Part shown: positions 5,134 through 43,633 of the stretch, piece by piece
Position numbering within the stretch: the stretch's first letter is position 1
How the letters are laid out: each line of letters begins with the position of its first letter
DNA from: Myxococcota bacterium
Lineage (GTDB): Bacteria > Myxococcota_A > Polyangia > Polyangiales > Houyiibacteriaceae
Direction: 5' to 3'
Assembly (NCBI GenBank): GCA_028284955.1
Contig: JANQQS010000146.1
Location: 1 to 56,172 of the forward strand
DNA: 56,172 nt
Translations under genes and position numbers: made by a program
The notes under the pieces: model-generated
Database searches by the model: none
Told to the model about the DNA's origin: nothing
Seen by the model: the letters and a program-made list of their open reading frames with translations, nothing else

Positions 5134-5136
5134 GGG

Positions 5137-6582
5137 CTACGCTGACTTCAGAGCTCCGCGAGCAGGTAGGGGAGAGGGCGCGACGCTGGCGTGTTTGGCC
5201 ACGCCAACGAATCGCAGGATAAGGTAGACCGGTAGCGCGTATTGCAGCGTGGACGACAACGCGGCGAGCGTCGGCGCGAAATACACCAGAAGCACGCCGT
5301 AAAGCACCACTACGTTGGGGTCTTTGGATCGTTCGAGCAACCATTCGTAGAGGCCTCGCTGTACACCGCCCCAGAGAAACATGCCGATGACGATGCCGAT
5401 CCACGCAAAGTTCGCGTAGAGCGCTCCCAAATAAACCGTGGGAATACGAAGCCCGACCAAGTTCCACATAATGCGGCTATCGCGCCATTTGAAGTGCGTA
5501 TGCTTATCTTTCCAAAGCCAGCGCGGAACGAGCATGCCGACGAGCCCGTACCATGTTTTGCCGACCAGATAGTCGTATCGATCGGGGAAATGGTAGAACA
5601 CCACCGCGAGAGCCTCGAAACGAGTTCGGTCGCGCTCGTGTTCGGCGAGAACTTTGTCCGGTCGATAGGTTTGTACCGAGGCTTGGTCGCGCAGATGGTC
5701 TTCCCGATATTGGCCAAGGACGCTGCTGATGATCAGGGCGACGAATCCGAGAGCGATGATCGCGGTCATGGGCACGCGCTTCTTCAAATAGTGCGCGCAG
5801 ATGAAGAGCACGATGCCCATGTAGACGATTTCTCCGCGCTGCCCGAGTCGGGTGACCATGAGACCGACCAAGACAGCCACGATTCCGACCGCGTACAATG
5901 CGGGCGAAGTGGGCCGAGCGAGTAGCCGAGCGGCGACCAAGTAAATGGGTACGAGAGCGATCAACACTCCGCGGTTGAGCCAGGTAATGGTCGGGTCGTC
6001 CCGCCACACCGCCTTGCCTTCTCCGAGCATGGTGGCGTCGAAAATGTTTCCGCCGATTTTGGACTGGAGATATCCGTATGCGCCCAAGAAGATGACTCCA
6101 CACACCACCATCGCGAGCACCAAGCGGCTCTGGACCCACTCCTGACCGACGATTCGTGTGGGCCACCACGATCGAAACCGGGTTCCAAAGTTCGAGTAGT
6201 ATCCGGCGTAAAACGCGAGGCGTCCGAGCACCAAGGCGAGAATCACTGTCTGTGCCAGCTCGACTCGAGAGTACCGCGTCATAAAGGGCAGCAGCTCGAA
6301 GCGCACGCTCCCTGCTGCGGCGATCGCAAAAAAGCTCGCGGCAAGCCGGAGCGTTCCCGTGGCGGCCGTGTATCCTACCGGACTGAACACATCGGCGGTT
6401 TTCGGCCAAAGAAGCGGCCACGCGTACACCACGATGGCGACGAAAAAGTAGGGAAGCACAGCCACGAGATCCGGCGCCGTGCTGTCGGTCATCCACACCA
6501 GCGCCGCGGCGATGGCGCAAATGGATGTCAGTCGGCGTAAGACTGGCGTGCGAGGAGTGGGCTGAGGCTCGAGTTCGTTCAA
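5137..6582 (-). CDS. Wzy-like polysaccharide polymerase (multi-pass membrane protein)
   Basis: A 481-residue, highly hydrophobic protein with about 11-12 membrane segments. A large polar loop at residues ~330-390 contains FYHFPDRYDYLVGKTWYG and a Trp/Lys/Arg-rich stretch, which is typical of EpsG/O-antigen-polymerase-type proteins. By family it would join repeat units on the outer face of the inner membrane. The start codon overlaps the stop of the upstream dehydratase gene (ATGA at 6579-6582), and the sulfotransferase follows 3 bp after its stop, so it sits inside one transcription unit. Sequence identity within this family is low, so the call rests on topology and neighbours. Confidence 0.72.
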   Translation of the reverse strand: MNELEPQPTPRTPVLRRLTSICAIAAALVWMTDSTAPDLVAVLPYFFVAIVVYAWPLLWPKTADVFSPVGYTAATGTLRLAASFFAIAAAGSVRFELLPFMTRYSRVELAQTVILALVLGRLAFYAGYYSNFGTRFRSWWPTRIVGQEWVQSRLVLAMVVCGVIFLGAYGYLQSKIGGNIFDATMLGEGKAVWRDDPTITWLNRGVLIALVPIYLVAARLLARPTSPALYAVGIVAVLVGLMVTRLGQRGEIVYMGIVLFICAHYLKKRVPMTAIIALGFVALIISSVLGQYREDHLRDQASVQTYRPDKVLAEHERDRTRFEALAVVFYHFPDRYDYLVGKTWYGLVGMLVPRWLWKDKHTHFKWRDSRIMWNLVGLRIPTVYLGALYANFAWIGIVIGMFLWGGVQRGLYEWLLERSKDPNVVVLYGVLLVYFAPTLAALSSTLQYALPVYLILRFVGVAKHASVAPSPLPARGALKSA

Positions 6583-8570
6583 TTGCGGTGAGCTGCGGGA
6601 CGGAGTGGAAGCATAGGTGCGCCCCCGGTTTCGGGGCGGCGAGCGTCCGAGGAGCGTCGCGACGCGGCCTTGTCGGTATTTGCTCGCTTGGGCGGCTCTC
6701 GTTCGGGGAGTGCGTACTCCGGAACCGCATGTTTGAGCGCGCTACGAATGTCGTGTTGTTGGTTTGTCTGGTACGCGGCACCGAGCGCGTTGAGCTGCGC
6801 CTGTAGTGAATCCCACGCGGACGGCTGAAGTTTTCCAACAAAGATCTTGGGATGACGGGTTTTGGCTGCGTTCTCAGCCTGCACGGAGAGTTCTTCGAAC
6901 AGTTTTTCTCCCGGCCGAATGCCCGAGAACACGATGTCGATGTCGTGATCTGGCTTGAGACCCGAGAGCGAAATCAAATCGCGTGCGAGGTCGACGATTT
7001 TGACCGGTTCGCCCATGTCCAAGATGAAAATCTCGCCGCCCGTTCCCATGCTTCCCGCTTGCAGCACGAGCTGGCATGCTTCGGGAATGGTCATGAAGTA
7101 ACGGCACATCTCCGGGTGGGTCACCGTCACCGGGCCGCCGCGCTTGATCTGGTCTCTGAAAATGGGCACGACGCTCCCCGCGCTGTCGAGCACATTGCCA
7201 AAGCGTACCGCCGTGAAGCGGGTCTCGCTTCGCTCGGAAAGCGCTTGAATGTACAGCTCGGCCATGCGCTTGGTCGCGCCCATCACCGACGTCGGGTTTA
7301 CGGCCTTGTCGGTCGAGATCATCACGAACGCAGACACTCCGAACGCGTGCGATACGTCAGCGATGGCTTTCGTTCCGAGGACGTTGTTCTTGACCGCTTC
7401 CCCCGGGTTCCATTCCATCATCGGCACGTGCTTATGCGCCGCTGCATGAAAGACGACCTCGGGCCGTTCGTCACCGAAGATCGCGCGGAGCCGTTCGCTA
7501 TCGGCCACGTCGGCCACGAGCGGGATGATTTCGACATCGGCATGTCGTTGGGTGAGTTCGCGGTGAACAAAAAACAGGCTGTTCTCTGCGCGCTCCAGCA
7601 GCAACAACCGCTTCGGCCCAAACCGGACGATTTGACGACACAGTTCAGATCCGATGCTCCCGCCCGCCCCACTCACCAGCACCACGCGATCGCGAACCAC
7701 CTTCGAAATCGCATCCTCGTCGAGCACCACGGGGTCGCGGCGAAGTAAATCTTCGATCGCCACGTCTCGGATGCGGCTGATTTTGGCTCGCCCGTCGACC
7801 ATCTCGTAGAGGCCAGGGATCATCTTGGCGGGGACGCCGGCTGCCTCACATCGCGCGGAGAATCGGCGAATGACCGAGCCCGGTGCCGCCGCGACCGCGA
7901 TCAGAACCTGTTTGGCGCCGGTTCGTTCGCAGAGTGCTGGAAGCTCTTCCGTGCTGCCGAGGACACGAATGCCGTGGAGGATGGTGCCGTGCTTGAGGAT
8001 ATCGTCGTCGACGAATCCCACCGGCTTGATGCCGAGGTCAGGACGCTTTTCGATTTCCTTGGCGACCATGAGCCCGGCTTGTCCTGCACCCACCACCAGC
8101 GTCGGGATAGACTCGCCTGGGGTGGTCTTACGGTGAGTGGCCTGAGTGGCTCGCTCGGCGCGAATTCTGCGCGCGACGCGCACGCCCACCACCGCGATGC
8201 AGGCCAGTGAAAAGTCGATCGCGAGCACACCGAGGGGAATCAGTCCGCGGCGCAATGCCGGGTAGTCGTGATGAAGCATGCCCGTGCCGAGCCGAACCGC
8301 GAGCAGCACCGTCGTGCCGAGCCCAAGTCCAACCACGATACGCATCGCTTCGCGCAAACCGACAAAGCGCCAGGGAAAGCGAGGCACTCCGAGCGCGTAG
8401 AGAAATAGGTATTTAAGTACAACAGCGTAGGGCAGCGTGAAGACCCACTGCCGAATCGCCGACCAAGGCGGGTCCCAGTCAAAGCGGAGGAGAAAGCCCA
8501 GGGTGTACGCGGCGGTGAGTACCGCGAGGTCCACCAGGGTTTCGCCTACGCGTCTGTACACACGCACCAT
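6579..8570 (-). CDS. Membrane-bound nucleoside-diphosphate sugar 4,6-dehydratase (CapD/PglF/WbpM family)
   Basis: A 663-residue protein. Residues ~10-130 hold four membrane segments. Residues ~155-260 are a first nucleotide-binding fold (VVGAGQAGLMVAKEI). Residues ~295-600 are the catalytic SDR domain, with the NAD loop GAGGSIGSE at 301-309 and the active-site region STDKAVNPTSVMGATKR at 419-435, including the Met430-x3-Lys434 pair used by this family in place of Tyr-x3-Lys. Members convert UDP-GlcNAc to the 4-keto-6-deoxy sugar, the first step to diamino- or deoxy-sugars. The full two-fold length (around 600-660) is normal. It starts 3 bp after the epimerase stop. The low-complexity C-terminal tail (after ~620) is Arg/Ala/Pro-rich. 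Confidence 0.92.
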   Translation of the reverse strand: MVRVYRRVGETLVDLAVLTAAYTLGFLLRFDWDPPWSAIRQWVFTLPYAVVLKYLFLYALGVPRFPWRFVGLREAMRIVVGLGLGTTVLLAVRLGTGMLHHDYPALRRGLIPLGVLAIDFSLACIAVVGVRVARRIRAERATQATHRKTTPGESIPTLVVGAGQAGLMVAKEIEKRPDLGIKPVGFVDDDILKHGTILHGIRVLGSTEELPALCERTGAKQVLIAVAAAPGSVIRRFSARCEAAGVPAKMIPGLYEMVDGRAKISRIRDVAIEDLLRRDPVVLDEDAISKVVRDRVVLVSGAGGSIGSELCRQIVRFGPKRLLLLERAENSLFFVHRELTQRHADVEIIPLVADVADSERLRAIFGDERPEVVFHAAAHKHVPMMEWNPGEAVKNNVLGTKAIADVSHAFGVSAFVMISTDKAVNPTSVMGATKRMAELYIQALSERSETRFTAVRFGNVLDSAGSVVPIFRDQIKRGGPVTVTHPEMCRYFMTIPEACQLVLQAGSMGTGGEIFILDMGEPVKIVDLARDLISLSGLKPDHDIDIVFSGIRPGEKLFEELSVQAENAAKTRHPKIFVGKLQPSAWDSLQAQLNALGAAYQTNQQHDIRSALKHAVPEYALPEREPPKRANTDKAASRRSSDARRPETGGAPMLPLRPAAHRN

Positions 8571-9950: not shown

Positions 9951-11921
9951 CTATCGCATGGCGGCGTAGAACGCCATCGTCCCGCCATCGGCGCTGTGGC
10001 ATCCCGAAGTGCCCGTCCACGAGCCAAGGCTGGTGTTGACGTCGTAGCCTGCTGCTTCTCCGCCGCTTCGTTGGTAGCTGTAGAGATAGTGCTGCGCGCA
10101 GCCGCAATTGAGATTCCAATACGCCGTGCTGTGATGGTCGACGCCTTGGGTCGTGGTGCCCGCGCAGGTGTTGCCGTCGCGGCTCACGTAGAAGTCGCCG
10201 CCTCGCGCGATGTTGTAGTTGGCGTAGCCTAAGAACGCATCGGGGTTGGTGGTTCCATCGTTTGCGGTGATGGTGACGGCGACGTGGCTCTCGCTGCTCG
10301 GGGTATCGAGGTTTTCGTCGAAGAGCGGGGCGTCGGCCTTGAGCCACGGCCCGGTGCGTCGGACGAAGATCGATTCGTCGGCTCGGGCGCTGAGCGCCAT
10401 CTTTTTCGCGCGGTCGACATTGAACGCGTCAAACGCGAATGGGTCACCCGCGGTTTCGGTGTCTGAGACGAGCGCTTGTTCGCCCGCCGCACCGGTGGCA
10501 CCGAAGACGATGGTCCAGCCGCCGCCGTCGGTGACCATGTCACAGTAGGCATCGAAGGGTTCCACCGGGCCCACGCCATCGGGGTCGATTTCGTAGGTTC
10601 CGTTGGTTGCGGTCGGGTTCGCACTCAAGATCGATGCGCAATCCGGATGCGGCAACTTTCGCACCCAGAGGCGGACGCGGTCGGCCGAGTTGCTGCCGCC
10701 TGCCTCGTTGGGCTGCGAGTACGTCGGAATGCCCCGATTGGTACCGTCGGGGTGGCCGCGCCCCGAGCCAACCGCAAACCACCAGCAACCACCAGGGTCG
10801 CCGTCCAGGTAGGAGGCGCTGGTGCCTACCGCGAGGCCGCCGAAAGGCTGGCATCCGCGTTGGTCGGCCGGCATCATCGTCACGTTGGAAATGCGTGCCC
10901 GGGCGTTGTCGGACACGTCCATGGGATTGGCGCCTTGGGTCCATTGGACGTAGCCCGCGGGCATCGGTCCATCGGGCCACTCGTAGAGCAGCTCGTAGGT
11001 TCCGTCGGCGCCTTCGAAGCGATGAAGTTGATCGAGAATCGAATACTGGCCCGAGTTCGGCATGTCGGGGTTCACAGAAACCCATTCCGCCTTCGGGCGA
11101 TACCCGGGCGCGACGTCGATGTCTTGATCGAACACCTGCGTCCAGCCGCCGTCGTTCATGCTCATCGAGCAGTAGACGGTCATCGGTTCGGTCGCGCCCG
11201 CGGGAACGATGGTGTACTCGCCGTCGGTGGCGGCAGGATTGGCCCGCAGGATCTGGAGGCAGTCTTCGAGCGCGGTGCAGGTTTCGCCATCTCCGGAGTA
11301 CCCGGGGTCACATTCGCACGTGAACCCGCCGGCTGTGTTGGTGCAGGCCGCGTTTTCGTCGCAGTTGTCGGCCGCGGTGGCGCATTCGTCGATGTCCACG
11401 CATCCCGTGGCGCCGTCGCCGGTATACCCGGCTGGGCAATCCCCGCAGGTGCGGCTTCCACTGGTGTTGGTGCAGGTGGTGAGCGCATCGCAACCGCCGT
11501 TGTCGGTCGCGCATTCATCGATATCTAAGCAGCCCGATTCAGCGCCTCCGGTGTAGCCTTCAGGACAGTCGCCGCAGGTGAAGCTGCCCGCGGTGTTGGT
11601 GCATTCCGCGAGTGCATCGCAGCCGCCGTTGTCGGTGGCACATTCGTCTACATCGACGCACGATGTGCCGTCGCCATTCGGGTCGTCGTACCCCAGCGGA
11701 CATTGTCCGCAATCGGCGCGGCCGCCGTTGTTGGTGCAGGTGGCGAGCATGTCGCAACCGCCGTTGTCGACCGCACAAAGGTCCACCGTCGCTGCGTCGG
11801 ACAGACCAGCGTCGCCGTTTGTTCCGCTGTCATCGTCGCCGCATGCCACAGCCAAACACGCCATGAGCACAAACCCGCTCCACCGCCCGACATCGCGGAC
11901 GCACCCCACAACTCCCCTCAT
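9951..11921 (-). CDS. Lipoprotein with EGF-like repeats and two fibrinogen-like domains
   Basis: A 656-residue predicted surface lipoprotein. The signal ends in LAVAC, so the Cys in VACGDDD is the lipid site; the ATG at 11921 has a strong GGAGGGG site upstream. Four Cys-rich EGF-like repeats follow (roughly residues 50-215). Three of them begin with the calcium-binding pattern D-[IV]-DEC and contain CTNT-x-G. Then come two domains starting CLQILRANPAATDGEY and CASILSANPTATNGTYEI, each with the fibrinogen C-terminal hallmark YC.M....GGWT (roughly 216-425 and 426-656). Such modules bind protein or glycan ligands in animals. In bacteria they are probably adhesive or sensory surface domains. It is a single gene with its own terminator, and no partner is evident. 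Confidence 0.85.
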   Translation of the reverse strand: MRGVVGCVRDVGRWSGFVLMACLAVACGDDDSGTNGDAGLSDAATVDLCAVDNGGCDMLATCTNNGGRADCGQCPLGYDDPNGDGTSCVDVDECATDNGGCDALAECTNTAGSFTCGDCPEGYTGGAESGCLDIDECATDNGGCDALTTCTNTSGSRTCGDCPAGYTGDGATGCVDIDECATAADNCDENAACTNTAGGFTCECDPGYSGDGETCTALEDCLQILRANPAATDGEYTIVPAGATEPMTVYCSMSMNDGGWTQVFDQDIDVAPGYRPKAEWVSVNPDMPNSGQYSILDQLHRFEGADGTYELLYEWPDGPMPAGYVQWTQGANPMDVSDNARARISNVTMMPADQRGCQPFGGLAVGTSASYLDGDPGGCWWFAVGSGRGHPDGTNRGIPTYSQPNEAGGSNSADRVRLWVRKLPHPDCASILSANPTATNGTYEIDPDGVGPVEPFDAYCDMVTDGGGWTIVFGATGAAGEQALVSDTETAGDPFAFDAFNVDRAKKMALSARADESIFVRRTGPWLKADAPLFDENLDTPSSESHVAVTITANDGTTNPDAFLGYANYNIARGGDFYVSRDGNTCAGTTTQGVDHHSTAYWNLNCGCAQHYLYSYQRSGGEAAGYDVNTSLGSWTGTSGCHSADGGTMAFYAAMR

Positions 11922-12173
11922 TCATCCCCTCCGACAAGAGTTCGCAAAGAACCCCGCGGCGCTCCAACCATCACACTTCCGGAGGCGCTGCGGGGGTTCA
12001 AAAAGTGTGCAGGCGGCCGTAGGGGACAGCCAACAATAATATTATCCGCGCTGAATTTTGGTGGCACCATTGGATACCTTAGCGGTTCTATGCGCGGGTA
12101 TGCGTTTCGTTGAACGAAGGACTACATGACGTGCGGTGGGCGCCAGGCCAATCGTGCATCGCGATACCGGGGC

Positions 12174-12179
12174 TATACT
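12174..12179 (+). promoter_or_regulatory. -10 element TATACT abutting a GTG start
   Basis: TATACT ends seven bases before the GTG at 12187, with no convincing ribosome site between. A transcript from it would start at about the start codon (leaderless). No good -35 box is seen. Confidence 0.4.
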
Positions 12180-12186
12180 GGGGCGA

Positions 12187-15100
12187 GTGTCCGAAGAGCA
12201 GACGTTGGCGGATCCGTTCATCGCGTTTCGCCGCGTGGAAGTTCGCCGGTATCGCGCATTTGCGGGAATGGTCGCGCTCAGCGTCGTCACGACCTATGCG
12301 ATCGCCGCGTTTCTGGACAGCGATCCGTTGTTTCACCGGATTCATCTGACCATCAGCGCTCCTTGCGGCATCTACGCCGCTTGGTTTTTGGTTCGGACCC
12401 GCGACATTCGCCGATATGCATCATGGATGGGCGAAGGGCTCGCGTACATCTGCCTCGCTCAGATTCTTACGACGCTGCCCGTGTATGGGCCGTTCTCCTT
12501 TGTGGTGTTGTTCGTTCCGCTGGGCTTTTTCGTCTACTGCCAGGGCGACCGGGTGCGCGTGGGCATCGTGTTGTTGGTGTTCGCGCTCCCCGGGCTCGCG
12601 ATTCTTGGCTTCGGGCAGGTGCGTGGTGGATGGACTGCGACCAGTCTCATCGGTCTCTATGACGGCACCAGCGCTCGGGTCTACGCGAACACTGCACTGG
12701 TTTGTCTCATTTCGCTTCTGGCGTTCGTTCAATCGAGATTGGTTCGCCGCACGACCCGCGGGTCGCTTGACGAACTCGATGACGCGGCGCGAGATATCGG
12801 CGTTCGGGAGGCGATTGTGGCCGAGGCGCGCGACGAGATCGATCGCGCGATGCGGAGAGATCAACGAGGACGATTTACGGGGCAAACCATAGGCGGCTAT
12901 CGACTCGGTTCCGTGTTGGGGCGAGGCGCGATGGGAGAGGTGTACGATGCCCAGACCGAAGACGGGACGCCATGCGCGATCAAGGTTCTTCAGTCGAGCG
13001 CGGTGCGTGAGAGCGCCAACGTTGAGGCGTTTTTTCGCGAAGCGGAGGTAGTGCGGACGCTTGATGTGCGCCACGTGGTGAAGATTCTCGATTGCTCTGC
13101 CGAAGATACGCCGATTCCTTGCATCGTGATGGAGCGGCTTCGCGGACAGAGCCTATCGGAAATTCTCCGTGCCCGTGGCCGGCTGACTCTCGACGAAGTT
13201 CTTGGGTTGGTGCATGAGGTGGCGTTGGGGCTTGAAGCCGCTCATCAGGCAGGCGTTGTCCATTGCGATCTCAAACCAGCAAATATCTTTCGGCATCGCG
13301 AAGATGACGGAGAGACGGTTTGGAAGGTGCTCGATTTTGGCGCCTCCCATCGGATCACGGATGGCGCTGCCATCGTCGAGGGGCGCTTGGTCGGTACCCC
13401 TGCGTACATGGCCCCCGAACAGTTTTCTCCGGCGGCGTCACGTTCTTCAACCGCACCGTCTGCAGAACCGCTAAGCGCCGCTACCGACGTGTACGCGCTA
13501 GGAATCGTCGCCTACCGAGCGCTCACGGGTCGTCCTGCGTTTGGAGGAGCAGGACACGCCGCCATGCTCTATTCGATTGCGAACCATATGCCCTCTGCGC
13601 CGCAAGCGCTGGGTGTCGAAGACGCAGTCTCAGACGTGATTGCGCTCGCGATTGCCAAGCGAGCTGAAGACCGCTGGGCAACGCCTCGCGCGTTCGCCGA
13701 GAGTTTGTACTCGGCGGCAGAGGGAACGCTGCCACACGCGACGCGTCGACGCGCGCGTACGCTGCTGCACGAGCACCCTTGGGGGGACGAGCTTCGGGCG
13801 TGGATGCTGCGAAACGATTCGCTGCTGCCGACTGCGCGTAGACCGTCGTCTCTCGCCCCCGATGCACCGATGGTCAGTGCCGCCCGTGCGACGAGCGCGG
13901 TCACCGGAACTCAGTCCACCGGAACCCTGTCCACCGTTGCGCTTGCCGACCAGTGGCCGCCGCCGTCGCGCAACGGCCACCAAGCGGCATATGCGCACGT
14001 TCCGTCCTCGGCCGAATCGCAAACCAGCGACCTCATCAGCACCGCGCTCGACGTGTCGCAAGCAGGAAATCAAACCGGAAGCGAAGCGAAAAAAACTCTT
14101 GAGGAGTGCGCTGAGCAATCGATCATCGCCGAGCGATCAGCGATCGCAGGAGCATCTGGCGTCGACGAAGGACTGGACGAACGTTCCGAGTCATCGGTGG
14201 CTTCACTCGACCGCACGCAGCTCACGACGACTGGAATTGCGCTTCGCCTCAACGAGCTTCGCAACCTGCGCATGTTCGCAAAGCTCATGCTCATCGTCTT
14301 GTTCACGTCTGGCCCGATCGGCGTGTTTCTGGGCGGTCATCGCATGGCACTCGGCGCGTACCTCGGGTGTGGCGCGGTCTCGGCGGCATTTTTTATTTGG
14401 TTTCTCATTCGGACGCACACCCCGCAGCGTTATCAGCCTAGTCTTGGCGTCGCGTTCGGTGCATTCACGGCGGTGGTTGTGTCATCGGGCATTCCTTATT
14501 GGGGCGGCGCTTCGGCTATTTCGCTATTCATCCCGTTTGCGCTGTGCACCTTTGCGCAAGGTACCGATTTTCGCGCGGGCTTCGTGTTCTATGCGCTTTG
14601 TCATGCGACTTGGTTTGTATGGGGGGTGTTGCGGCTTACCCGCATCGCTCCGAACGTCGCGGTATGCGGGATTCTTTCAGACCATGCAGCGACCGATTGG
14701 GCGATTTTCTTCGGCGCGCAAGCAATCTTGGCCCTGTCGTACATCCAGGCGAAGTCGCAGCGTCAGGGAACGGAAACCACCTTTCTCGAGCTCGAAGCGG
14801 CGACGCGAACGGTGGCCGGGCGGCAAGCACTGGTGGATGAGTTTCGCGCAGAGATCGAGCAGGCAGTGCGCGTCGGCGGGCCAGGTGCGTTTTCAGACCA
14901 CGTGCTCGGCTCGTATCGGTTGGGCAATTTGATCGGCCGCGGCGGGATGGGGGATGTCTACGAGGCTACCCATACGCGCGACGGAAGCTTCGCGGCCACG
15001 AAGCTAATGAATGCGTCGATCACCCAAAAGCCATCGGTCATTCGGCGCTTCCTTCGAGAGTCGCGCTTGATTGCCAAGCTCAACACACCAAACGTGGTGC

Positions 15101-15762
15101 GCATCCTCGAGCTTCCCGACGCCGAATCGCCGATTCCGTTCATCACCATGGAACGTCTGGCGGGGGAAACGCTTTCACAGCGACTTCGTCGCGCGGGAAC
15201 CCTCACCGTCATCGAAGCACAAGATATGCTGCGGCAGGTCGGGGCCGGTGTGGCCGCGGCACACGCGACAGGGATTGTGCATCGAGACCTGAAACCGGCC
15301 AATCTCTTCTTGCACCAACCTTCGACCGGCGAACCGGTCTGGAAGGTTCTGGATTTTGGTGTTTCCAAATCGCTCGATACCCACGCAACGCAAACCCAAG
15401 GAGGGTTTTTGGGAACGCCCGCGTATGTCCCGCCGGAGCAAGTCTATGGAATGGAGGTTGATGCGCGGAACGACGTGTATGCGCTCGGCGTTGTGCTGTA
15501 CCGCGCACTTACCGGACGACTTCCGTTTACCGGCGAAGCGACCGAGATATTGCATCAAGTGCTTACCCAGATGCCCGCGGCGCCGAGTAGTGTACGCAGC
15601 GAACTGCCTACGCGGATCGACGAGGTTGTCCTCAAAGCGCTCGCCAAGGAGAAAAAAGACCGCTTTGCCGGCGTCGCTGAGTTGGTGCGCGCGTTCGAAC
15701 AAGCCGCTGGTGCGCGGAAGGACGCCGCGCTAGCAGAACGAAATGCTTCGGCGGAGGGCTAA
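12187..15762 (+). CDS. Double-module membrane Ser/Thr protein kinase (PknB type)
   Basis: About 1191 residues built as two consecutive copies of one architecture: several membrane segments, a short helical linker, then a complete kinase domain. Module 1 has membrane helices at ~25-185 and a kinase at ~235-510, with glycine loop LGRGAMGEVY, Lys in CAIK, catalytic loop HCDLKPAN, DFG and GTPAYMAPEQ. Module 2 has membrane helices at ~690-860 and a kinase at ~905-1175, with IGRGGMGDVY, HRDLKPAN, DFG and GTPAYVPPEQ. Matching phrases in the membrane parts (AAWFLVRT / FIWFLIRT) show internal duplication. Kinase 1 has Cys in place of the Arg of HRD; kinase 2 is normal. The Ser/Thr-rich stretch between the modules (~530-680) could be a phosphorylation region. 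The start is uncertain: GTG 12187 is preferred over GTG 12136. Its stop overlaps that of the convergent RES gene. Confidence 0.9.
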   Translation: MSEEQTLADPFIAFRRVEVRRYRAFAGMVALSVVTTYAIAAFLDSDPLFHRIHLTISAPCGIYAAWFLVRTRDIRRYASWMGEGLAYICLAQILTTLPVYGPFSFVVLFVPLGFFVYCQGDRVRVGIVLLVFALPGLAILGFGQVRGGWTATSLIGLYDGTSARVYANTALVCLISLLAFVQSRLVRRTTRGSLDELDDAARDIGVREAIVAEARDEIDRAMRRDQRGRFTGQTIGGYRLGSVLGRGAMGEVYDAQTEDGTPCAIKVLQSSAVRESANVEAFFREAEVVRTLDVRHVVKILDCSAEDTPIPCIVMERLRGQSLSEILRARGRLTLDEVLGLVHEVALGLEAAHQAGVVHCDLKPANIFRHREDDGETVWKVLDFGASHRITDGAAIVEGRLVGTPAYMAPEQFSPAASRSSTAPSAEPLSAATDVYALGIVAYRALTGRPAFGGAGHAAMLYSIANHMPSAPQALGVEDAVSDVIALAIAKRAEDRWATPRAFAESLYSAAEGTLPHATRRRARTLLHEHPWGDELRAWMLRNDSLLPTARRPSSLAPDAPMVSAARATSAVTGTQSTGTLSTVALADQWPPPSRNGHQAAYAHVPSSAESQTSDLISTALDVSQAGNQTGSEAKKTLEECAEQSIIAERSAIAGASGVDEGLDERSESSVASLDRTQLTTTGIALRLNELRNLRMFAKLMLIVLFTSGPIGVFLGGHRMALGAYLGCGAVSAAFFIWFLIRTHTPQRYQPSLGVAFGAFTAVVVSSGIPYWGGASAISLFIPFALCTFAQGTDFRAGFVFYALCHATWFVWGVLRLTRIAPNVAVCGILSDHAATDWAIFFGAQAILALSYIQAKSQRQGTETTFLELEAATRTVAGRQALVDEFRAEIEQAVRVGGPGAFSDHVLGSYRLGNLIGRGGMGDVYEATHTRDGSFAATKLMNASITQKPSVIRRFLRESRLIAKLNTPNVVRILELPDAESPIPFITMERLAGETLSQRLRRAGTLTVIEAQDMLRQVGAGVAAAHATGIVHRDLKPANLFLHQPSTGEPVWKVLDFGVSKSLDTHATQTQGGFLGTPAYVPPEQVYGMEVDARNDVYALGVVLYRALTGRLPFTGEATEILHQVLTQMPAAPSSVRSELPTRIDEVVLKALAKEKKDRFAGVAELVRAFEQAAGARKDAALAERNASAEG

Positions 15763-36916: not shown

Positions 36917-36984
36917 CCTTCCCTTACTGATCGCGATTTGATTTCCTTTCGGAGATGCGGTGCATCCAGCATATGAGGGACAAT

Positions 36985-38532
36985 ATGGAATGCATAGTAA
37001 GTTTGAGTCGTAGAGTTAGCGCTTGTGTAGGGACGTTCGCACTGGTGGCTTCGTTATTCGCGGGAGGCTGCGGTGACGACGATTCCACCAATGAGGATGG
37101 AGGAACCGTCACCGATAGCGGATCCGCGCGCGATGGCGCGACCACTCCTGACAGCGGGCCCGTGGTTTCCGATGGCGGCGGTACCGGCGATGGAGGAGGG
37201 ACGGTATCCTGCGCGGGAGGCCCGGCGTGCGGTGCATGCGAGACATGCGGACCGACGGGTTGTGTGCCCGTAGACGACGGTACCGCGTGTGGAGACGGAG
37301 CCTGCTACGCCGGGTCTTGCTGTACCGGATGTTGGGACGGTTCAGCATGTCAGTCCGGCACCACCCTCGCCATGTGCGGAAACTCAGGTGAGGCGTGTTC
37401 AACGTGCAGCAACCCGTCGTGTGCGAATGTCAGCTGTGCAACCGGCGCATGCATGCCCGCAGCCCCAGTGGAAGCATTTTCGCTCGGCGGCTTCTCCACC
37501 TGCGCCGTGGCGGCAGGGGGCAGCCTGTGGTGTTGGGGACAAAACTCTGACGACGAGCTCGGACTTGGCAGCGAAGCACCGTCCGCGGTTGAGGTGCCGA
37601 CGCAGGTGGGCACGGAGTCGTGGATCACCGTCGGGCTAGGCGAAGATCACGGTTGTGGAATCCGCCAAAATGGCACGTTGTGGTGCTGGGGAAACAACGA
37701 AGATGGTCAGCTGGGCGTCGGCGACACCACCAATCGCGACGTCCCCACGCAGGAAGCCCTTGCAGCCACAAACTGGGTTCGAGTGTTGTCTTCCGCCGTC
37801 GACCAGGCCACCTGCGGTCTACGACAAGACGGGTCGATGTATTGCTGGGGAGACAACTCCTCCGGGCAACTCGGTCTCGGCGACTCGGACAATCGTGACA
37901 CTCCGACCCAGGTCGCGGGTACTTGGTTGGACGTCTCGGTGGGCAACGCACACATCTGCGGAATTCGCATGGGAGGCACGTTGTGGTGCTGGGGAGACAA
38001 CGAAGGCGGCCAACTGGGTCAAGGCGACACCACAAATGTCGACTCGCCCGCGCAGGTCGGAACCGACACCAACTGGAAGGACGTGAGCGCTGGCGCGGAC
38101 CATACCTGCGCTATTCGCATGGACGGGACGCTGTGGTGCTGGGGCGACAACAGCAATGGCGCGCTGGGAACCGGGGGCGGTGATGATCAGACGACGCCGG
38201 TGCAGATTGGCGCGGACAACAACTGGGACAGCATCGTCTCAGAAGGCAACCGTTTCAACTGCGGCTTGCGCACGGAAGGAACACTGTGGTGCTGGGGAAG
38301 AAACTTCCGCGGCCCGCTCGGTTTGGGCGATACAAGCGATCGCAACGCGCCCGAGCAGGTCGGCACCGATACAGACTGGGCGTCCGTGAATATCGGTCGT
38401 GACCATGCGTGCGCACTAAAGGATGACGGCGTGCTCGAATGCGTCGGCCGCAACTTCGCGGGTGGCCTAGGCATTGGGGACACCGACGATCGCACGGAGC
38501 ATGTGGCGATTTGTTTCCCGTCACCTAGCTAG
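36985..38532 (+). CDS. RCC1-repeat lipoprotein (copy A)
   Basis: About 515 residues. ATG 36985 has GAGGGA close upstream; in-frame starts at 36955 and 36973 are possible. The signal ends SLFAGGC, followed by an Asp/Gly/Thr linker and a Cys-rich segment (CGACETCGPTGC, CYAGSCCTGC). From about residue 165 there are seven RCC1 blades, each with the pattern LWCWG.N..GQLG.GD...R..P.QVG...W..V..G..H.C.IR.DGTL. Such propellers bind proteins or nucleotides in eukaryotes; in bacteria the role is unknown. It shares the whole layout with the copy at 39704-41488. It faces a polysaccharide-lyase gene, from which it is separated by a two-way terminator. Confidence 0.85.
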   Translation: MECIVSLSRRVSACVGTFALVASLFAGGCGDDDSTNEDGGTVTDSGSARDGATTPDSGPVVSDGGGTGDGGGTVSCAGGPACGACETCGPTGCVPVDDGTACGDGACYAGSCCTGCWDGSACQSGTTLAMCGNSGEACSTCSNPSCANVSCATGACMPAAPVEAFSLGGFSTCAVAAGGSLWCWGQNSDDELGLGSEAPSAVEVPTQVGTESWITVGLGEDHGCGIRQNGTLWCWGNNEDGQLGVGDTTNRDVPTQEALAATNWVRVLSSAVDQATCGLRQDGSMYCWGDNSSGQLGLGDSDNRDTPTQVAGTWLDVSVGNAHICGIRMGGTLWCWGDNEGGQLGQGDTTNVDSPAQVGTDTNWKDVSAGADHTCAIRMDGTLWCWGDNSNGALGTGGGDDQTTPVQIGADNNWDSIVSEGNRFNCGLRTEGTLWCWGRNFRGPLGLGDTSDRNAPEQVGTDTDWASVNIGRDHACALKDDGVLECVGRNFAGGLGIGDTDDRTEHVAICFPSPS

Positions 38533-38550
38533 CGTTTCCTTTACCACCCA

Positions 38551-38588
38551 AAGAAAAAGGGCTGCCGTTTCGGGCAGCCCTTTTTTTT
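38551..38588. terminator. Bidirectional terminator between RCC1 (A) and lyase (A)
   Basis: GGGCTGCC / GGGCAGCC arms (38559-38566 / 38572-38579) with a 5-nt loop are followed by T8 on the plus strand (38581-38588) and by A-rich sequence (38551-38558) that serves as a T-rich tract on the minus strand. It can end both convergent genes. Confidence 0.9.
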
Positions 38589-38610
38589 ATCGAGAAAAGA
38601 AATCCTAGAT

Positions 38611-39501
38611 CTAGATGTCCACCGCATGGAACGAGGTGCCGACGCGGACCTCGTCGATGTACAGCTTCTGTTCGTCGCCGTTGCTGCCCCACCCAGGGTC
38701 GCCCCGGTAGTTGCCAAGCTTCAGATACGGCGCTTTTGGAATGTCGATCATGATGCTGCCTTCACGATACACTCGCTTGTCGTAGCTCGACATGTTGGGG
38801 TCGCGAAGCCAGACCTGGAGTTTGCCGCCGCTGTCCGCGCGCCATTTGGCATTAATCACGAAGTCGGTCCAGCGATCCGTATGTGCATACCCGAGCAGCC
38901 ACTGTTTGGTCTTGATGTTCTGGGGACTACCATCAGAGTACTTGATGGTGAAGTACCAGTGTCCGTTCTTGATGGTCATCTTGGCCCAACCGCCATCGGT
39001 GTCCGCCCAACCTGGAATGCCCGAGTACCACTGAGCAAACTGCTGCACGATGGTCCAGTCCTGCGTATCAAAGCTCCAGTGCGGTTTGAGACTGAATCCG
39101 TAATACCGATCGTCCCCTACGTCGGGTCGGTCTTTCTCACGAAACTCCGCTCGCTCATGGCAGTTCTCAAGGATTGAGACCGCGGCCTTGCCACCAGCTC
39201 GTGGGCTCGTGCTCGTCTTTCTGAGGCTGACGCCATCTGCGCAACCGCAACCAGACCACGTGCCGCTTCCGCACGGCTCCACGCCAAACACGTCCGTGTA
39301 GGCGCTGTTGTTGAACACTTCCTTCCAATGCAAACCCGAGACATTTGCCTCGATTTTGCCGACGGCCCCGGGATCGATCGCACTTGACTCCTCACCGGAA
39401 TACGTTTCCATCACTTCCCCGGTGCACCCACCGAGAGAAGCTCCCGCCAATGCTAGCGTGAACGCTAGATCGACTTTTACGGCGTTACTTCTATACAGCA
39501 T
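38611..39501 (-). CDS. Polysaccharide lyase-like lipoprotein (heparin-lyase fold, copy A)
   Basis: About 296 residues from ATG 39501 (GAGGAGG ~12 bases upstream); an extra 14 residues are possible from 39543. The signal ends GASLGGC. The domain from about residue 55 carries the jelly-roll lyase signatures NCHERAEFREKDRP, DRYYGFSLKP, WTIVQQFAQWY, KNGHWYFTIKY and the final KLYIDEVRVG, resembling PF14099 (heparin lyase I/glucuronan lyase type). These enzymes cut uronate-containing glycans by beta-elimination. About two thirds of its motifs recur in the paralogue at 42502-43545. It has its own upstream palindrome at 39555. The substrate is unknown; the putative sulfated polysaccharide made by the 1.5-9.6 kb operon is one candidate, but this is inference. 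Confidence 0.8.
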   Translation of the reverse strand: MLYRSNAVKVDLAFTLALAGASLGGCTGEVMETYSGEESSAIDPGAVGKIEANVSGLHWKEVFNNSAYTDVFGVEPCGSGTWSGCGCADGVSLRKTSTSPRAGGKAAVSILENCHERAEFREKDRPDVGDDRYYGFSLKPHWSFDTQDWTIVQQFAQWYSGIPGWADTDGGWAKMTIKNGHWYFTIKYSDGSPQNIKTKQWLLGYAHTDRWTDFVINAKWRADSGGKLQVWLRDPNMSSYDKRVYREGSIMIDIPKAPYLKLGNYRGDPGWGSNGDEQKLYIDEVRVGTSFHAVDI

Positions 39502-39554
39502 TGCGACTACAAACCTCCTCGCTTTGATTTGAATCGAGCTCAATATTATTAATA

Positions 39555-39569
39555 ACAGTAAATTACTGT
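39555..39569. promoter_or_regulatory. Perfect 15-bp palindrome upstream of lyase (A)
   Basis: ACAGTAA-A-TTACTGT lies 54 bp upstream of the ATG at 39501, in a markedly AT-rich leader. Such symmetry fits a dimeric repressor or activator site. Nearby, AACCGA-tattcggg-TCGGTT followed by T6 is a weak plus-strand terminator-like hairpin (about 39574-39596). Confidence 0.55.
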
Positions 39570-39628
39570 ACCAACCGATATTCGGGTCGGTTTTTTAGAT
39601 TTTTCGCTTGTATAGCCCGGTTTATGGA

Positions 39629-39671
39629 CCCTAGGGGTTACGCGGTGGATAGCCCCCTAGGGGTTACGCGG
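39629..39671. repeat. Two direct copies of CCCTAGGGGTTACGCGG
   Basis: The 17-mer occurs at 39629-39645 and 39655-39671, period 26 bp. Each copy contains the palindrome CCCTAGGG. They sit 33 bp past the stop of the RCC1 (B) gene and upstream of lyase (A). They may be binding sites or a stem-forming terminator. Confidence 0.7.
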
Positions 39672-39703
39672 CGTATCGTCGCAAACCGGGTAGCGCGCTG
39701 GAA

Positions 39704-41488
39704 TCAGCTTCCCGCATTGGGGAAACATAGCACTTGAGGACCCAAGCGATCGTTGAAGTCTCCGGTCCCCAATGAACCGAAGAAGTTGCGCCCGAAGCAT
39801 TCAATGGTTCCGTTAGGCTTGAGGCCACACGTATGGTCCCGTCCGAGGTCGACTCCGGCCCAATCGGTGCTCGCTCCCACTTGAGTCGGGGCGCCACGGT
39901 CGGCCATGTCCCCGGTGCCGAGAGCCCCTCGAAAGTTTCGGCCCCAACACCAGAGAGTTCCATCAGAGCGCACGGCGCAGTTGTAGCGATTTCCTGTGGA
40001 CACCACCAAACGCCAGGTGTCTGCTCCAACCTGCACCGGCGACATGTGATCGATCCTATCGTCCGTGCCTAAGGCGCCGCTATTGTTGTCTCCCCAGCAC
40101 CACAGCGTGCCATCCGTGCGCAATCCACAGGTGTGCGCGAACCCCGCGCTCACGCTTCCCCAGTTGGTATCGGTGCCCACCTGTGTAGGCGCATTGAGGT
40201 CGACCACGTCGCCTTGGCCCAGCTGGCCATCCTCGTTGCTTCCCCAACACCAGAGCGTGCCATCGGGCCGCACTCCGCACGAATGTTCATCCCCGAGCGA
40301 GACTTGGCTCCACGTGCCCGCAGACAACGCAGTGGGTACATTCCGGTCCGCGGTATCGCCCACGCCCAGTTGCCCCCGATTGTTGCCGCCCCAGCAATGC
40401 AAACTGTTGTCGGAGCGTATTCCGCAGGCGTGGTTGCCGGTCGTGGCAGCCTCTACTTGGACCCAGTCGGTTGCCCCAGAGGCCTCCGCGGTGGGGGCGT
40501 TGCGCGCGGTGGTGTCGCCGACGCCCAACTGGCCGTCTTCATTGTTGCCCCAGCACCACAGCGTGTTGTCCTGACGTACCGCGCATCCATTGTCTTCCCC
40601 TTGGCTATGATCGAGCCAAAGATCCGTTCCCACCTGCGTGGGGACGTTGACGGTGTTTGGTGACCCGTTGCCCAGACCAAGCTGACCTTCCTCGTTGGCC
40701 CCCCAGCACCACAGCTGTCCGCTCTCGAGAATCGCGCACGACGTAAATCCGCCGAGGCCCAGCTGGCTTACCACCATCGTGGGGGTACATGACCCGTCCA
40801 CACACGTGGAGCTTTCGCAGGCGCAACGCACGCAGCTGTCTCCATTCGCCCCGCAGACGTCGTTGCTTGTTCCCGCCGCGCATTGAGCGCCGTCCCAGCA
40901 ACCCTCGCAACAGTTTCCTTCGTAACATCGACCGCTCGCGCACTCCGAGCCATCCGCGTCCACGATGCACTGACCGTCTTCGCCACACGTGCTGCACATC
41001 GGACACATGACATCGTCGCCGCACAAGGTAGGTGTGACGCATACTCCGCCCTCGCACGTCTGCGCACCGCTGCACAGGTCCTGCTCGTCTTCTGCGGCAC
41101 CCATTACGATTTCGACTTCGGATGCCTCTGTGGGAAGTTGAACTTCCACGCATCCGTTCGCAAAGATCTTGCAATCGCCATCCCGAGCGCGCCCCGAGTA
41201 CCCGTACGCACCCGGTCGGAGTTCTGGTACGCCGTCGATCGCGCCGGTGTCTCGCGTGATATCGGTCGTGAACACGACCGCCCCGCTATCGCAGCCCCCT
41301 TCTAGAATCCGTGCTTCCACTACGGTCGCTCGGGCGCTCAGCTCATCAGAACCAAACGAGATTTGCCAGCGCAGGTTCCGAGGCGGGGTGTCGCAGCTTA
41401 GAGCGGCGCACATAGCAATCAAAGACAGCGCGATCCACGAGGTTCGCCAAGCCAAACGAGATCGATCGACAGGGGGCTGAAGCTGCAT
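39704..41488 (-). CDS. RCC1-repeat lipoprotein (copy B)
   Basis: A 594-residue protein starting at ATG 41488 behind GGAAGGA. The signal ends AMCAALSC, with Asp at position +2. An extra N-terminal beta domain of about 90 residues (LRWQISFGSDELSARATVVEARIL) distinguishes it from copy A. The Cys-rich segment (CPMCSTCGEDGQC, CYEGNCCEGC) and seven RCC1 blades (LWCWG.N.GQLG.GD) follow as in copy A. The two proteins are clearly paralogues. The gene is divergent from the TPR protein at 41640, sharing a 151-bp promoter region. Function unknown; a surface recognition platform is a reasonable guess. Confidence 0.88.
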   Translation of the reverse strand: MQLQPPVDRSRLAWRTSWIALSLIAMCAALSCDTPPRNLRWQISFGSDELSARATVVEARILEGGCDSGAVVFTTDITRDTGAIDGVPELRPGAYGYSGRARDGDCKIFANGCVEVQLPTEASEVEIVMGAAEDEQDLCSGAQTCEGGVCVTPTLCGDDVMCPMCSTCGEDGQCIVDADGSECASGRCYEGNCCEGCWDGAQCAAGTSNDVCGANGDSCVRCACESSTCVDGSCTPTMVVSQLGLGGFTSCAILESGQLWCWGANEEGQLGLGNGSPNTVNVPTQVGTDLWLDHSQGEDNGCAVRQDNTLWCWGNNEDGQLGVGDTTARNAPTAEASGATDWVQVEAATTGNHACGIRSDNSLHCWGGNNRGQLGVGDTADRNVPTALSAGTWSQVSLGDEHSCGVRPDGTLWCWGSNEDGQLGQGDVVDLNAPTQVGTDTNWGSVSAGFAHTCGLRTDGTLWCWGDNNSGALGTDDRIDHMSPVQVGADTWRLVVSTGNRYNCAVRSDGTLWCWGRNFRGALGTGDMADRGAPTQVGASTDWAGVDLGRDHTCGLKPNGTIECFGRNFFGSLGTGDFNDRLGPQVLCFPNAGS

Positions 41489-41639
41489 GTTCCTTCCGAA
41501 GCCTAGAGTGGCGTGGACACTGTCCCTATTTTCGGAACGTGTTCGCCAAGACGATTGGCCAAACAGATCTTGGTTGCTCGAACTTCGTCATGATAACTTA
41601 AGCCTCACCAGGCGAGTAAGCTCAATCGCTTCGGCCAAC

Positions 41640-42485
41640 ATGAAACAGCGCGTAGATGAATTGACCGGACCAGCGGCTGCACACTTCGCGTTCGCGCTCG
41701 TTTTATGCCTCGCGTCTGTCGCGCATGCGCACCCGAAAATCGATCAGGCGCGACGAAGCTATGAACAGGCGGATTTTGACAAAGCGTTCGAGCTGCTGGG
41801 CGAAGCGGAATCCGCCGAGACACTGACGCGAGCAGAGCTCGCGACGTTGTATGAGCTCCGTGCGTTGGTTCACTTGGGGCTGCACAACTATGTGGAAATG
41901 GAGACCGACCTCGAACGTCTCGTGCTGGTCGATCCCGATCGGGCACCAAACGCCCGTATGCCTCCAGACCTAGCCCGCGCGTTGTCAAAAGTACGTGCAG
42001 GTTCGCGTGGGCCGCTCGAAGTACAAGTCGCCGCCACGAGCGGTCAATCGGGGGTCACGCTCGAGGCCGCTCTCTCCACGGAGACTTTTGGCGTCGTGAA
42101 CGAAATACGATTGTTTGGTCGCCGCGATGGAACAACGGAGTGGGTGACTTCCACCGACGGCCTTTTGTTGGTTCCTGCCTCCACGGGGGAGGCCGTTCAG
42201 TACTATGCAGAGGCCGTAGGTCCGGGCGGACAGATTTTGGCGCACCATGCCTCCGCAAAAGTTCCAAAACTCATTCATGTGGGAGAGCGTTTGAGCCTTG
42301 ACGGCGCCGCCGGGGGGCTCGCCCCCAATGGGCGGAACGTGGACACGTCGCGTCGCAGAAAGCGTTTGGCATGGGGTATTGTTGGAGCGGCGTTGGTTGC
42401 TGGGGCGGTCGTGGCCGCGGTGCTCTTGCTCCGCGACGATGGCGAGAGCGACACCACACGGGTTCAGCCCGAGGTCACCTTTTGA
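41640..42485 (+). CDS. Exported TPR-like protein with C-terminal membrane anchor
   Basis: A 281-residue protein starting at ATG 41640; an open frame from 41487 would bury the signal peptide. The signal peptide ends AHAHPK-like (cleavage after AHA). Helical repeats (SYEQADFDKAFELLGEAESAET, LATLYELRALVHLGLHNYVEME) follow at about residues 35-110, then a beta-rich segment (VNEIRLFGRRDGTTEW). Near the C-terminus a single membrane helix (WGIVGAALVAGAVVAAVLLL) precedes an acidic end. This layout is frequent in Myxococcota envelope proteins of unknown role. It converges with lyase (B), whose stop is 17 bp away. Confidence 0.75.
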   Translation: MKQRVDELTGPAAAHFAFALVLCLASVAHAHPKIDQARRSYEQADFDKAFELLGEAESAETLTRAELATLYELRALVHLGLHNYVEMETDLERLVLVDPDRAPNARMPPDLARALSKVRAGSRGPLEVQVAATSGQSGVTLEAALSTETFGVVNEIRLFGRRDGTTEWVTSTDGLLLVPASTGEAVQYYAEAVGPGGQILAHHASAKVPKLIHVGERLSLDGAAGGLAPNGRNVDTSRRRKRLAWGIVGAALVAGAVVAAVLLLRDDGESDTTRVQPEVTF

Positions 42486-42501
42486 GGTGAGCGCGGTCTA
42501 A

Positions 42502-43545
42502 CTACTCTGCAGGGCACTTCGTGCTGACTGCGCTGAACGTCGTTCCTACACGAATCTCGTCCACAAAAAGCCTCTGCTCCTCGCCGCAGCACCAGTTGGG
42601 GTCGCCACGATAGCTGCCCACTTTCAAATAGGGAGCACGAGGAACGTCGATGATGACGCTGCCGACACGTCGACCTTTGCCTTCGTAGGCACCACCGGGT
42701 TGTCGAATCCATACCTCGAAAAGGCCATCGCCATCTGCTCGCCACCGCCCGTGAACCACAAAATCGGTCCACTTGCCGACTTGCACCTCGCCCAGGTCAA
42801 AGCTCTGCGTGCGGATATCCTGCGGTCCACCATCAGAAAACTTGATGGTGTATTTCCATCGTCCGCGCTCGATGGTGATTTTGTGCCACCCACCGTCGGT
42901 GTCCGCCCAGCTAGGGATGCTCGGATACCATTGCGCGAGCTGATGGACGATGGTCCAACGGTCGGCATCGAAATTGTTGGCCGGCTTCAGGCTGAAGCCA
43001 TAGTAGCGGTTGTCCCCGACGGCCGCCCGGTTGCGCTCCTTCTCGCGAAACTCTGCGCGCTCATGACACGTGCGGAGCAGCGACAATCCAGAACCCGTTC
43101 CGGCACGAGCTTCTTCTCGTGTGCTCTGAAGGCTTACCCCGTCCCCACAACCACAACCTGGGTTCGAGCCGTTGCCACAAGGCTCCAGCGTCAGATTCTG
43201 CTCGTAGTTCGAGCTCGAAAAGCTCTGCTCCCATATCAAGCCAGCCCCGGAGGGCTGTTCCGCGCACCGTTCGAGGGAAGTCCCTGAATCTGTCGTCGCG
43301 CCGTCCAATCCTCCCCCTGCATCGGGTTCGGTCGGCTGCGTGCCGCCGGAAGAAGCGTCTCCCGCGTTCGGCTCTTGGGCCGAGCTGTCGCGATTCGCGT
43401 CTCCGGAGGTATCGCAGCCCCATGCGCCGACCAGGACCATCGCAACCAGGCCGGCAAACAAGGTTTGGTGGTCGCTGGTGCAGCCCCGCGCCGGCTTGCG
43501 CAGTGTCGGCCCGATCGCCCGCTGCGGTGGTGGTGAGGCCGTCAT
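42502..43545 (-). CDS. Polysaccharide lyase-like lipoprotein (heparin-lyase fold, copy B)
   Basis: About 347 residues from ATG 43545 (the open frame reaches 43617). The signal ends VGAWGC with Asp at +2. A 70-residue Asp/Ser/Gly linker follows. The catalytic-looking domain matches copy A phrase by phrase: CHERAEFREKERNRA, DNRYYGFSLKP, WTIVHQLAQWYPSIPSWADT, RGRWKYTIKFSDGG, RLFVDEIRVG. In place of copy A's QQFAQWY it has HQLAQWY, so a His lies next to the presumed active site. It is a paralogue of 38611-39501, and the pair suggests a duplicated locus. The start lacks a ribosome site. TAAACT lies 11 bases upstream of the ATG. Confidence 0.8.
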   Translation of the reverse strand: MTASPPPQRAIGPTLRKPARGCTSDHQTLFAGLVAMVLVGAWGCDTSGDANRDSSAQEPNAGDASSGGTQPTEPDAGGGLDGATTDSGTSLERCAEQPSGAGLIWEQSFSSSNYEQNLTLEPCGNGSNPGCGCGDGVSLQSTREEARAGTGSGLSLLRTCHERAEFREKERNRAAVGDNRYYGFSLKPANNFDADRWTIVHQLAQWYPSIPSWADTDGGWHKITIERGRWKYTIKFSDGGPQDIRTQSFDLGEVQVGKWTDFVVHGRWRADGDGLFEVWIRQPGGAYEGKGRRVGSVIIDVPRAPYLKVGSYRGDPNWCCGEEQRLFVDEIRVGTTFSAVSTKCPAE

Positions 43546-43633
43546 CGCGTAGCCAAAGTTTAGCGTTAAAACGCACATCCGTCCCAAGCTTGGGAGCGAT
43601 ACAAGAAGGACTTGCATCCGACCCGAAATTCAC

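Follow-up and report, generated by a model that had tools for sequence, protein, structure and literature searches.

RCC1 counts have shown that proteins with RCC1 repeats are abundant in myxobacteria, for which a separate branch of the RCC1 superfamily has been suggested (PMC3035250), and one RCC1 protein is known from outer-membrane vesicles (PMC4158809). In the plant receptor kinases CRINKLY4/ACR4, an RCC1-like ectodomain propeller is coupled to a kinase in one system, whereas the polysaccharide utilisation loci (PULs) of Bacteroidota, built around SusC and SusD, group surface lipoproteins with polysaccharide lyases. Here, we analyse a locus with likenesses to both, found in a window of 56,172 nucleotides (the whole stretch of DNA under study, positions 1 to 56,172 of contig JANQQS010000146.1, assembly GCA_028284955.1) from a Myxococcota bacterium of the order Polyangiales. 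Two RCC1 proteins, RCC1-A and RCC1-B, and two polysaccharide lyases, lyase-A and lyase-B, are encoded there together with a TPR-like membrane protein. Our reading, to which we would give an even chance, is that RCC1-B acts as the sensor, and the TPR-like protein as the relay, in a split receptor-kinase module that has been recruited here to the degradation of uronic-acid polymers (uronans).

The locus departs from each of these systems in its own way. As in ACR4, an RCC1 propeller would be linked to a kinase, but the two belong to different proteins in this case, and on our reading a lipid-anchored domain and the TPR-like protein connect them. As in PULs, surface lipoproteins would be grouped with polysaccharide lyases, but RCC1 takes the place of SusD and the link is to a module of the serine/threonine (Ser/Thr) kinase type; none of the ten window proteins scanned between 32.9 and 45.6 kb belongs to a SusC or SusD family, the pair that marks a PUL of the Bacteroidota type. 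Finally, the module kinases resemble the single-chain PknB/PASTA receptor Ser/Thr kinases in that their kinase domains match both Pkinase and the PknB model, but they fall below the cut-off for PASTA kinases, and sensing would sit in a separate lipoprotein whose state is relayed by the TPR-like protein.

A conserved module of lipoprotein, TPR-like protein and kinase

Two profiles, one for the N-terminal domain of RCC1-B and its relatives (N-domain) with the adjoining Cys-rich linker and the other for the TPR-like protein, were each run against 183 genomes of the order, and the neighbourhoods of strong TPR-like hits were scanned with hidden Markov models (HMMs) for N-domain, linker, TPR-like protein and kinase (kinase threshold E<1e-100, distance 6 kb). 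A Ser/Thr kinase was present at 51 of the 61 TPR-like loci, an N-domain lipoprotein at 35, both at 29 and RCC1 at 10; the kinase lay on the same strand within 200 nucleotides at 33 loci, and the N-domain protein likewise at 15. At 40 control loci, centred on genes of the lyase family PF14099 (about 8 kb to either side; all but one of them in genomes of the order, the exception belonging to another part of the phylum), the corresponding counts were three for the kinase, one for RCC1 and none for either the N-domain or the TPR-like protein. The TPR-like loci come from about 30 genomes in seven families of the order, and outside it the profile finds weak matches only (51 bits or less). In one genome (G029), the RCC1 gene has an overlap of 4 nucleotides with the TPR-like gene, and the kinase is 71 nucleotides off on the opposite strand.

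The lipoprotein component is modular. In most members, the N-domain, which has no Pfam name, begins within a few residues of a lipobox-like Cys, and the parts that follow it are exchanged between proteins: among 32 C-terminal parts we found RCC1 (6), Lectin_C (4), Laminin_G_3 (4), MopE metal-binding motifs (4) and FG-GAP (3). Several such recognition domains bind carbohydrate in other settings. The remaining two components are probably held at the membrane, given a C-terminal hydrophobic segment in 64 of 65 TPR-like proteins and a hydrophobic segment behind the kinase domain in 48 of 56 kinases. Neither the N-domain profile nor the TPR-like profile has a convincing solved relative. Among papers, mostly from outside the subscription journals, that treat RCC1 together with polysaccharide lyases, with kinases of myxobacteria or with PULs, we found no description of the trio. 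At one locus, an N-domain lipoprotein (L293:8133-9092) ends in a C-type lectin domain (2.4e-14); its gene overlaps that of a module kinase by 4 nucleotides, and a TPR-like gene is close by.

In the window, RCC1-B carries the N-domain, and the gene next to it encodes a match to the TPR-like profile (4e-129) with an N-terminal hydrophobic segment, helical repeats and a predicted C-terminal transmembrane segment (hydrophobic amino acids 63-81 and 297-315). We call the protein TPR-like from the look of its sequence; it has no Pfam TPR match. An earlier, sequence-only reading of the window had listed it as an extra TPR protein. The gene does stand between the two duplicate pairs, but it is not extra: it is a conserved partner of RCC1 lipoproteins, normally found with a Ser/Thr kinase, and for this reason the evidence favours a part in sensing over a propeller-lyase unit that does no more than cut.

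Three RCC1 loci beside predicted uronan enzymes in one genome

The locus contig (C116) belongs to a genome of 6.07 Mb assembled in 223 contigs, in which the best full-length relatives of RCC1-B are two RCC1 pairs, on contigs C44 and C15. All six paralogues form one clade (87/80) made up of three fully supported sister pairs, one pair per locus, which indicates that each locus duplicated its own RCC1 gene. The enzymes at the three loci are of different types: PL20-like in the window, pectate-lyase-like on C44 and GH28-like on C15. On C44, the RCC1 genes are on one strand with genes for putative lipoproteins that are pectate-lyase-like (9e-78 and 6e-51 against the PelZ model), and the contig carries five pectate-lyase-like genes and one fragment; a TPR-like gene was not found in the stretch fetched. 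On C15, the RCC1 pair is accompanied by a TPR-like homologue, a GH28-like protein (8.5e-9) and a Ser/Thr kinase, and the GH28-like gene starts 6 nucleotides after the TPR-like stop. By comparison, no polysaccharide lyase (PL) or glycoside hydrolase (GH) family occurs among 20 neighbours of the other RCC1 genes of this genome, a set in which TPR, PEGA, Kelch, FG-GAP and metabolic proteins occur.

The sequence-only reading had seen in the repeated pairing of propeller and lyase the hint of a working unit. This idea survives in part: the RCC1 subfamily does recur beside unrelated uronan-active enzymes in its own genome, but the pairing of RCC1 with PL20 is not conserved elsewhere. RCC1 was encoded nearby at only one of the 40 PF14099 loci, which is about chance level given the abundance of RCC1, and no close relatives of the window lyases turned up in the collections searched; we therefore reject an RCC1-PL20 pairing as a conserved system. 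At the single positive locus (genome G129, L074:4317-12077), which adjoins chitinase-like genes, a stretch of about 4 kb encodes a PL20-like lyase that bears ricin-like repeats, along with a Ser/Thr kinase and an RCC1 protein, and we treat it as a chance-level observation.

Two further features of the genome were observed. DUF4397-like putative lipoproteins (L115:5055-6065, L118:1071-2054 and L118:2265-3245) stand beside the RCC1/enzyme loci of C44 and C15; they were not seen in the window and are possibly a further part of the set. Additionally, two closely similar RCC1 genes (L117:2-1330 and L119:11194-12522) are broken off at the ends of contigs C204 and C203, and are probably a recent duplicate that broke the assembly.

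Duplicated genes of the window

Five genes occupy positions 36955-43617, in the order RCC1-A, lyase-A, RCC1-B, TPR-like and lyase-B (Table 1). The sequence-only reading had described two RCC1 and two lyase genes as A and B copies, which we confirm, and had allowed that the copies might be unrelated beyond their fold, which they are not: RCC1-A and RCC1-B are 52% identical over 496 amino acids (E 4e-174), and lyase-A and lyase-B 51% over 273 amino acids (E 9e-101), so that sequence comparison makes both true homologous duplicate pairs. At the DNA level, the two pairs have diverged equally (66% identity for RCC1, 67% for the lyases), the pattern that roughly simultaneous duplication of the two would leave. 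Lyase-A lies on the same strand as RCC1-B, 160 nucleotides downstream of it; the TPR-like gene diverges from RCC1-B, with a 5' region common to both, and converges with lyase-B.

Table 1. Genes of the window locus and domains of RCC1-B
Feature	Position	Strand	Match
RCC1-A, lipoprotein-like RCC1 beta-propeller protein with Cys-rich linker	36955-38532	+	Pfam PF25390 1.2e-74, PF00415 1.7e-58
Lyase-A, PF14099 polysaccharide lyase, PL20-like	38611-39543	-	Pfam PF14099 2.3e-22
RCC1-B, putative lipoprotein with N-domain, Cys-rich linker and RCC1 propeller	39704-41488	-	PF25390 4e-63
RCC1-B propeller	about 39740-40770	-	model matches UVR8/RCC1, E 7e-28
RCC1-B Cys-rich linker	about 40763-41076	-	linker HMM 6e-31
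RCC1-B N-domain	about 41077-41380	-	N-domain HMM 3e-48
TPR-like membrane protein	41487-42485, probable start near 41640	+	homologue in C15 RCC1 locus of the same genome, 7e-49
Lyase-B, PF14099 polysaccharide lyase, PL20-like	42502-43617	-	Pfam PF14099 2e-20

Both RCC1 proteins contain six RCC1 stretches by Pfam and are sister proteins with full support in the tree. The RCC1-B propeller was modelled with a predicted local distance difference test (pLDDT) of about 70-85 over many blades, and repeats and modelled fold alike place the protein in the RCC1/UVR8 superfamily; the model also matches the ACR4 ectodomain, more weakly (rank 47, E 3e-13). The N-domain of RCC1-B was modelled poorly (pLDDT about 30). 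In the alignment, RCC1-A is without this domain of about 100 amino acids, and of the module regions the HMMs find only the linker in it. We regard these proteins and the lyases as putative lipoproteins on the strength of lipobox-like cysteines read by eye, which in lyase-B and RCC1-B sit in non-canonical boxes.

The lyases score 80.4 and 74.0 bits against a curated PF14099 cut-off of 29.9, and the genome has no other clear PF14099 gene, though a third match, a weak one, is on C104. A profile built with their relatives matches the PL20 glucuronan lyase of Trichoderma reesei (2zzj) at 1.7e-60, and this is the only solved relative that we found. Single-sequence similarity is very weak, with E 0.025 for lyase-B (phmmer) and no meaningful match for lyase-A, and, unlike the T. 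reesei enzyme, the window lyases are bacterial putative lipoproteins. The position of His53 in 2zzj, a residue whose role we take as a criterion for PL20, is Arg in both copies (Arg187, in the motif RAEF, in lyase-B, with a His two residues upstream), and because of this Arg we class the enzymes as PL20-like, not as PL20. Gln91, Tyr200 and the calcium ligand Asp222 of 2zzj are conserved in both copies, their equivalents in lyase-B being Q229, Y336 and D353, which are invariant in the alignment. Gln91 is a substrate-side glutamine common to 2zzj, Cip1 and a viral alginate lyase (PMC3764139). Judging from these residues, the active cleft looks preserved yet not identical to that of PL20. An AlphaFold model of lyase-B from a two-row alignment reached a pLDDT of 33. 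The sequence-only reading had called the enzymes heparin-lyase-like and suggested uronate or sulfated glycans as possible targets; PF14099 is the better label, a specificity for sulfated glycans or heparin found no support, and we have abandoned the heparin-lyase reading. Searches of the 183 genomes of the order and of 377 genomes of the phylum turned up no close relatives of the lyases, nor did a pattern search across 84,980 species. An origin from plasmids or viral contigs was also considered and rejected, as neither gave a match.

Elsewhere in the window, the gene at 12136-15762 (+) encodes a single chain of 1208 amino acids that combines two protein-kinase domains, at residues about 257-513 and 927-1177. 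The gene at 9951-11921 (-) encodes a 656-amino-acid protein in which several calcium-binding EGF domains are joined by a match to the fibrinogen C-terminal domain, an architecture like that of extracellular proteins of animals.

Sensing, capture and coincidence

Across this order of Myxococcota, the module would comprise a lipid-anchored lipoprotein, a TPR-like protein fixed in the membrane by its C-terminal end, and a Ser/Thr kinase. The lipoprotein would hold its N-domain close to the anchor and present a swappable outer recognition domain, here the RCC1 propeller, to the ligand; the N-domain would contact the TPR-like protein, and the TPR-like protein the kinase. RCC1-type modules appear to have been multiplied in this genome and linked to enzymes predicted to cut uronic-acid polymers, which in the window would be the two PL20-like lyases. 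These may trim an external polyuronate, and the propellers may bind the polymer or its fragments. RCC1-B would then signal its state, by way of the TPR-like protein, to a kinase that we assume to act in trans, that of C15 for example, and RCC1-A, being without the contact domain, would only capture polymer.

Several observations weigh against this reading. No module Ser/Thr kinase lies within 6 kb of the locus or elsewhere in the window, and the window locus is a partial module for that reason; one is present in the sister locus on C15, and the nearest kinase gene of the window (12136-15762) is a weaker match about 26 kb away. Several of the 61 TPR-like loci are orthologous in sister species, which makes the independent number smaller. 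Similarly, the three RCC1 loci share one ancestor and are not fully independent, and their enzyme families were noticed post hoc. Four of the five GH28 genes, as well as a pectate lyase on C36, have no RCC1 nearby. In RCC1 modules of other species, we found no PL20, PL1 or GH28 match, a negative limited by a wider Pfam survey that displayed the commonest families only, and the enzyme link is thus established for one genome only. Finally, RCC1 propellers bind many partners besides sugars.

Some of these points would suit a surface capture-and-cut unit without signalling, in which RCC1 lipoproteins hold polyuronate for the lyases in the manner of SusD and the TPR-like gene is a scaffold or a relic of the module. 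The missing kinase, the missing N-domain of RCC1-A, the co-directional placement of RCC1-B and lyase-A and the arrangement on C44, with RCC1 and pectate lyases on one strand and no TPR-like gene in the fetched stretch, are all in keeping with such a unit. However, the TPR-like gene is intact, with a 5' region in common with RCC1-B, and on C15 the TPR-like gene and the kinase have stayed beside the RCC1 pair and GH28, and we consider an arrangement without signalling unlikely, if the most serious alternative.

A merely coincidental neighbourhood, with the lyases landing near an RCC1/TPR-like module in genomes rich in RCC1 proteins, kinases and lipoproteins, strikes us as improbable. RCC1 matches are spread over 13 contigs, and both the chance-level pairing at PF14099 loci and the failure to find close relatives of the lyases fit this explanation; the recurrence of uronan-active enzymes at all three loci of the subfamily, against none among the 20 neighbours of other RCC1 genes, and the tight spacing of the TPR-like and GH28 genes on C15 do not. 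If the genome has about nine uronan-enzyme loci, the chance that three of three RCC1 loci lie within 5 kb of one is about 3e-6, and it rises to about 1e-2 once 150 carbohydrate enzymes of whatever type are admitted, figures that serve only as a guide because the enzyme families were picked after looking and the loci share ancestry.

On the same contig, genes at 1517-8570 (-) encode an O-antigen-ligase-like (Wzy-like) protein that contains TPRs, together with a sulfotransferase and a Polysacc_synt_2 epimerase, and may form a cluster for the synthesis of a sulfated surface polysaccharide. That the lyases and propellers remodel such an acidic or sulfated polysaccharide of the organism itself, instead of acting on food, is nevertheless very improbable, as these nucleotide-sugar epimerase and associated genes (1.5-8.6 kb) lie about 30 kb from the lyases and the enzymes of the sister loci, being pectate-lyase-like and polygalacturonase-like, suggest pectin from plants or algae as the target.

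The split receptor-kinase module remains our preferred explanation of RCC1-B and its TPR-like neighbour, and would be a form of bacterial receptor-kinase signalling linked here, in a single genome, to polysaccharide degradation. It is tempting to extend this, tentatively and with more doubt than confidence, to Polyangiales-type myxobacteria at large, which may use split receptor kinases with interchangeable lectin, laminin-G, integrin-like or RCC1 lipoproteins, the RCC1 receptors of the present lineage sensing uronans and being wired to lyases. Myxobacteria have many RCC1-repeat proteins and very many Ser/Thr kinases without a known signal. If our reading is correct, a trio with swappable recognition domains would offer candidate receptors and ligand classes for part of these RCC1 proteins and kinases, with the enzyme-linked copies naming a testable ligand (pectin, glucuronan or alginate), and would represent a way of sensing glycans that differs from both the SusC/SusD and the two-component systems of Bacteroidota.

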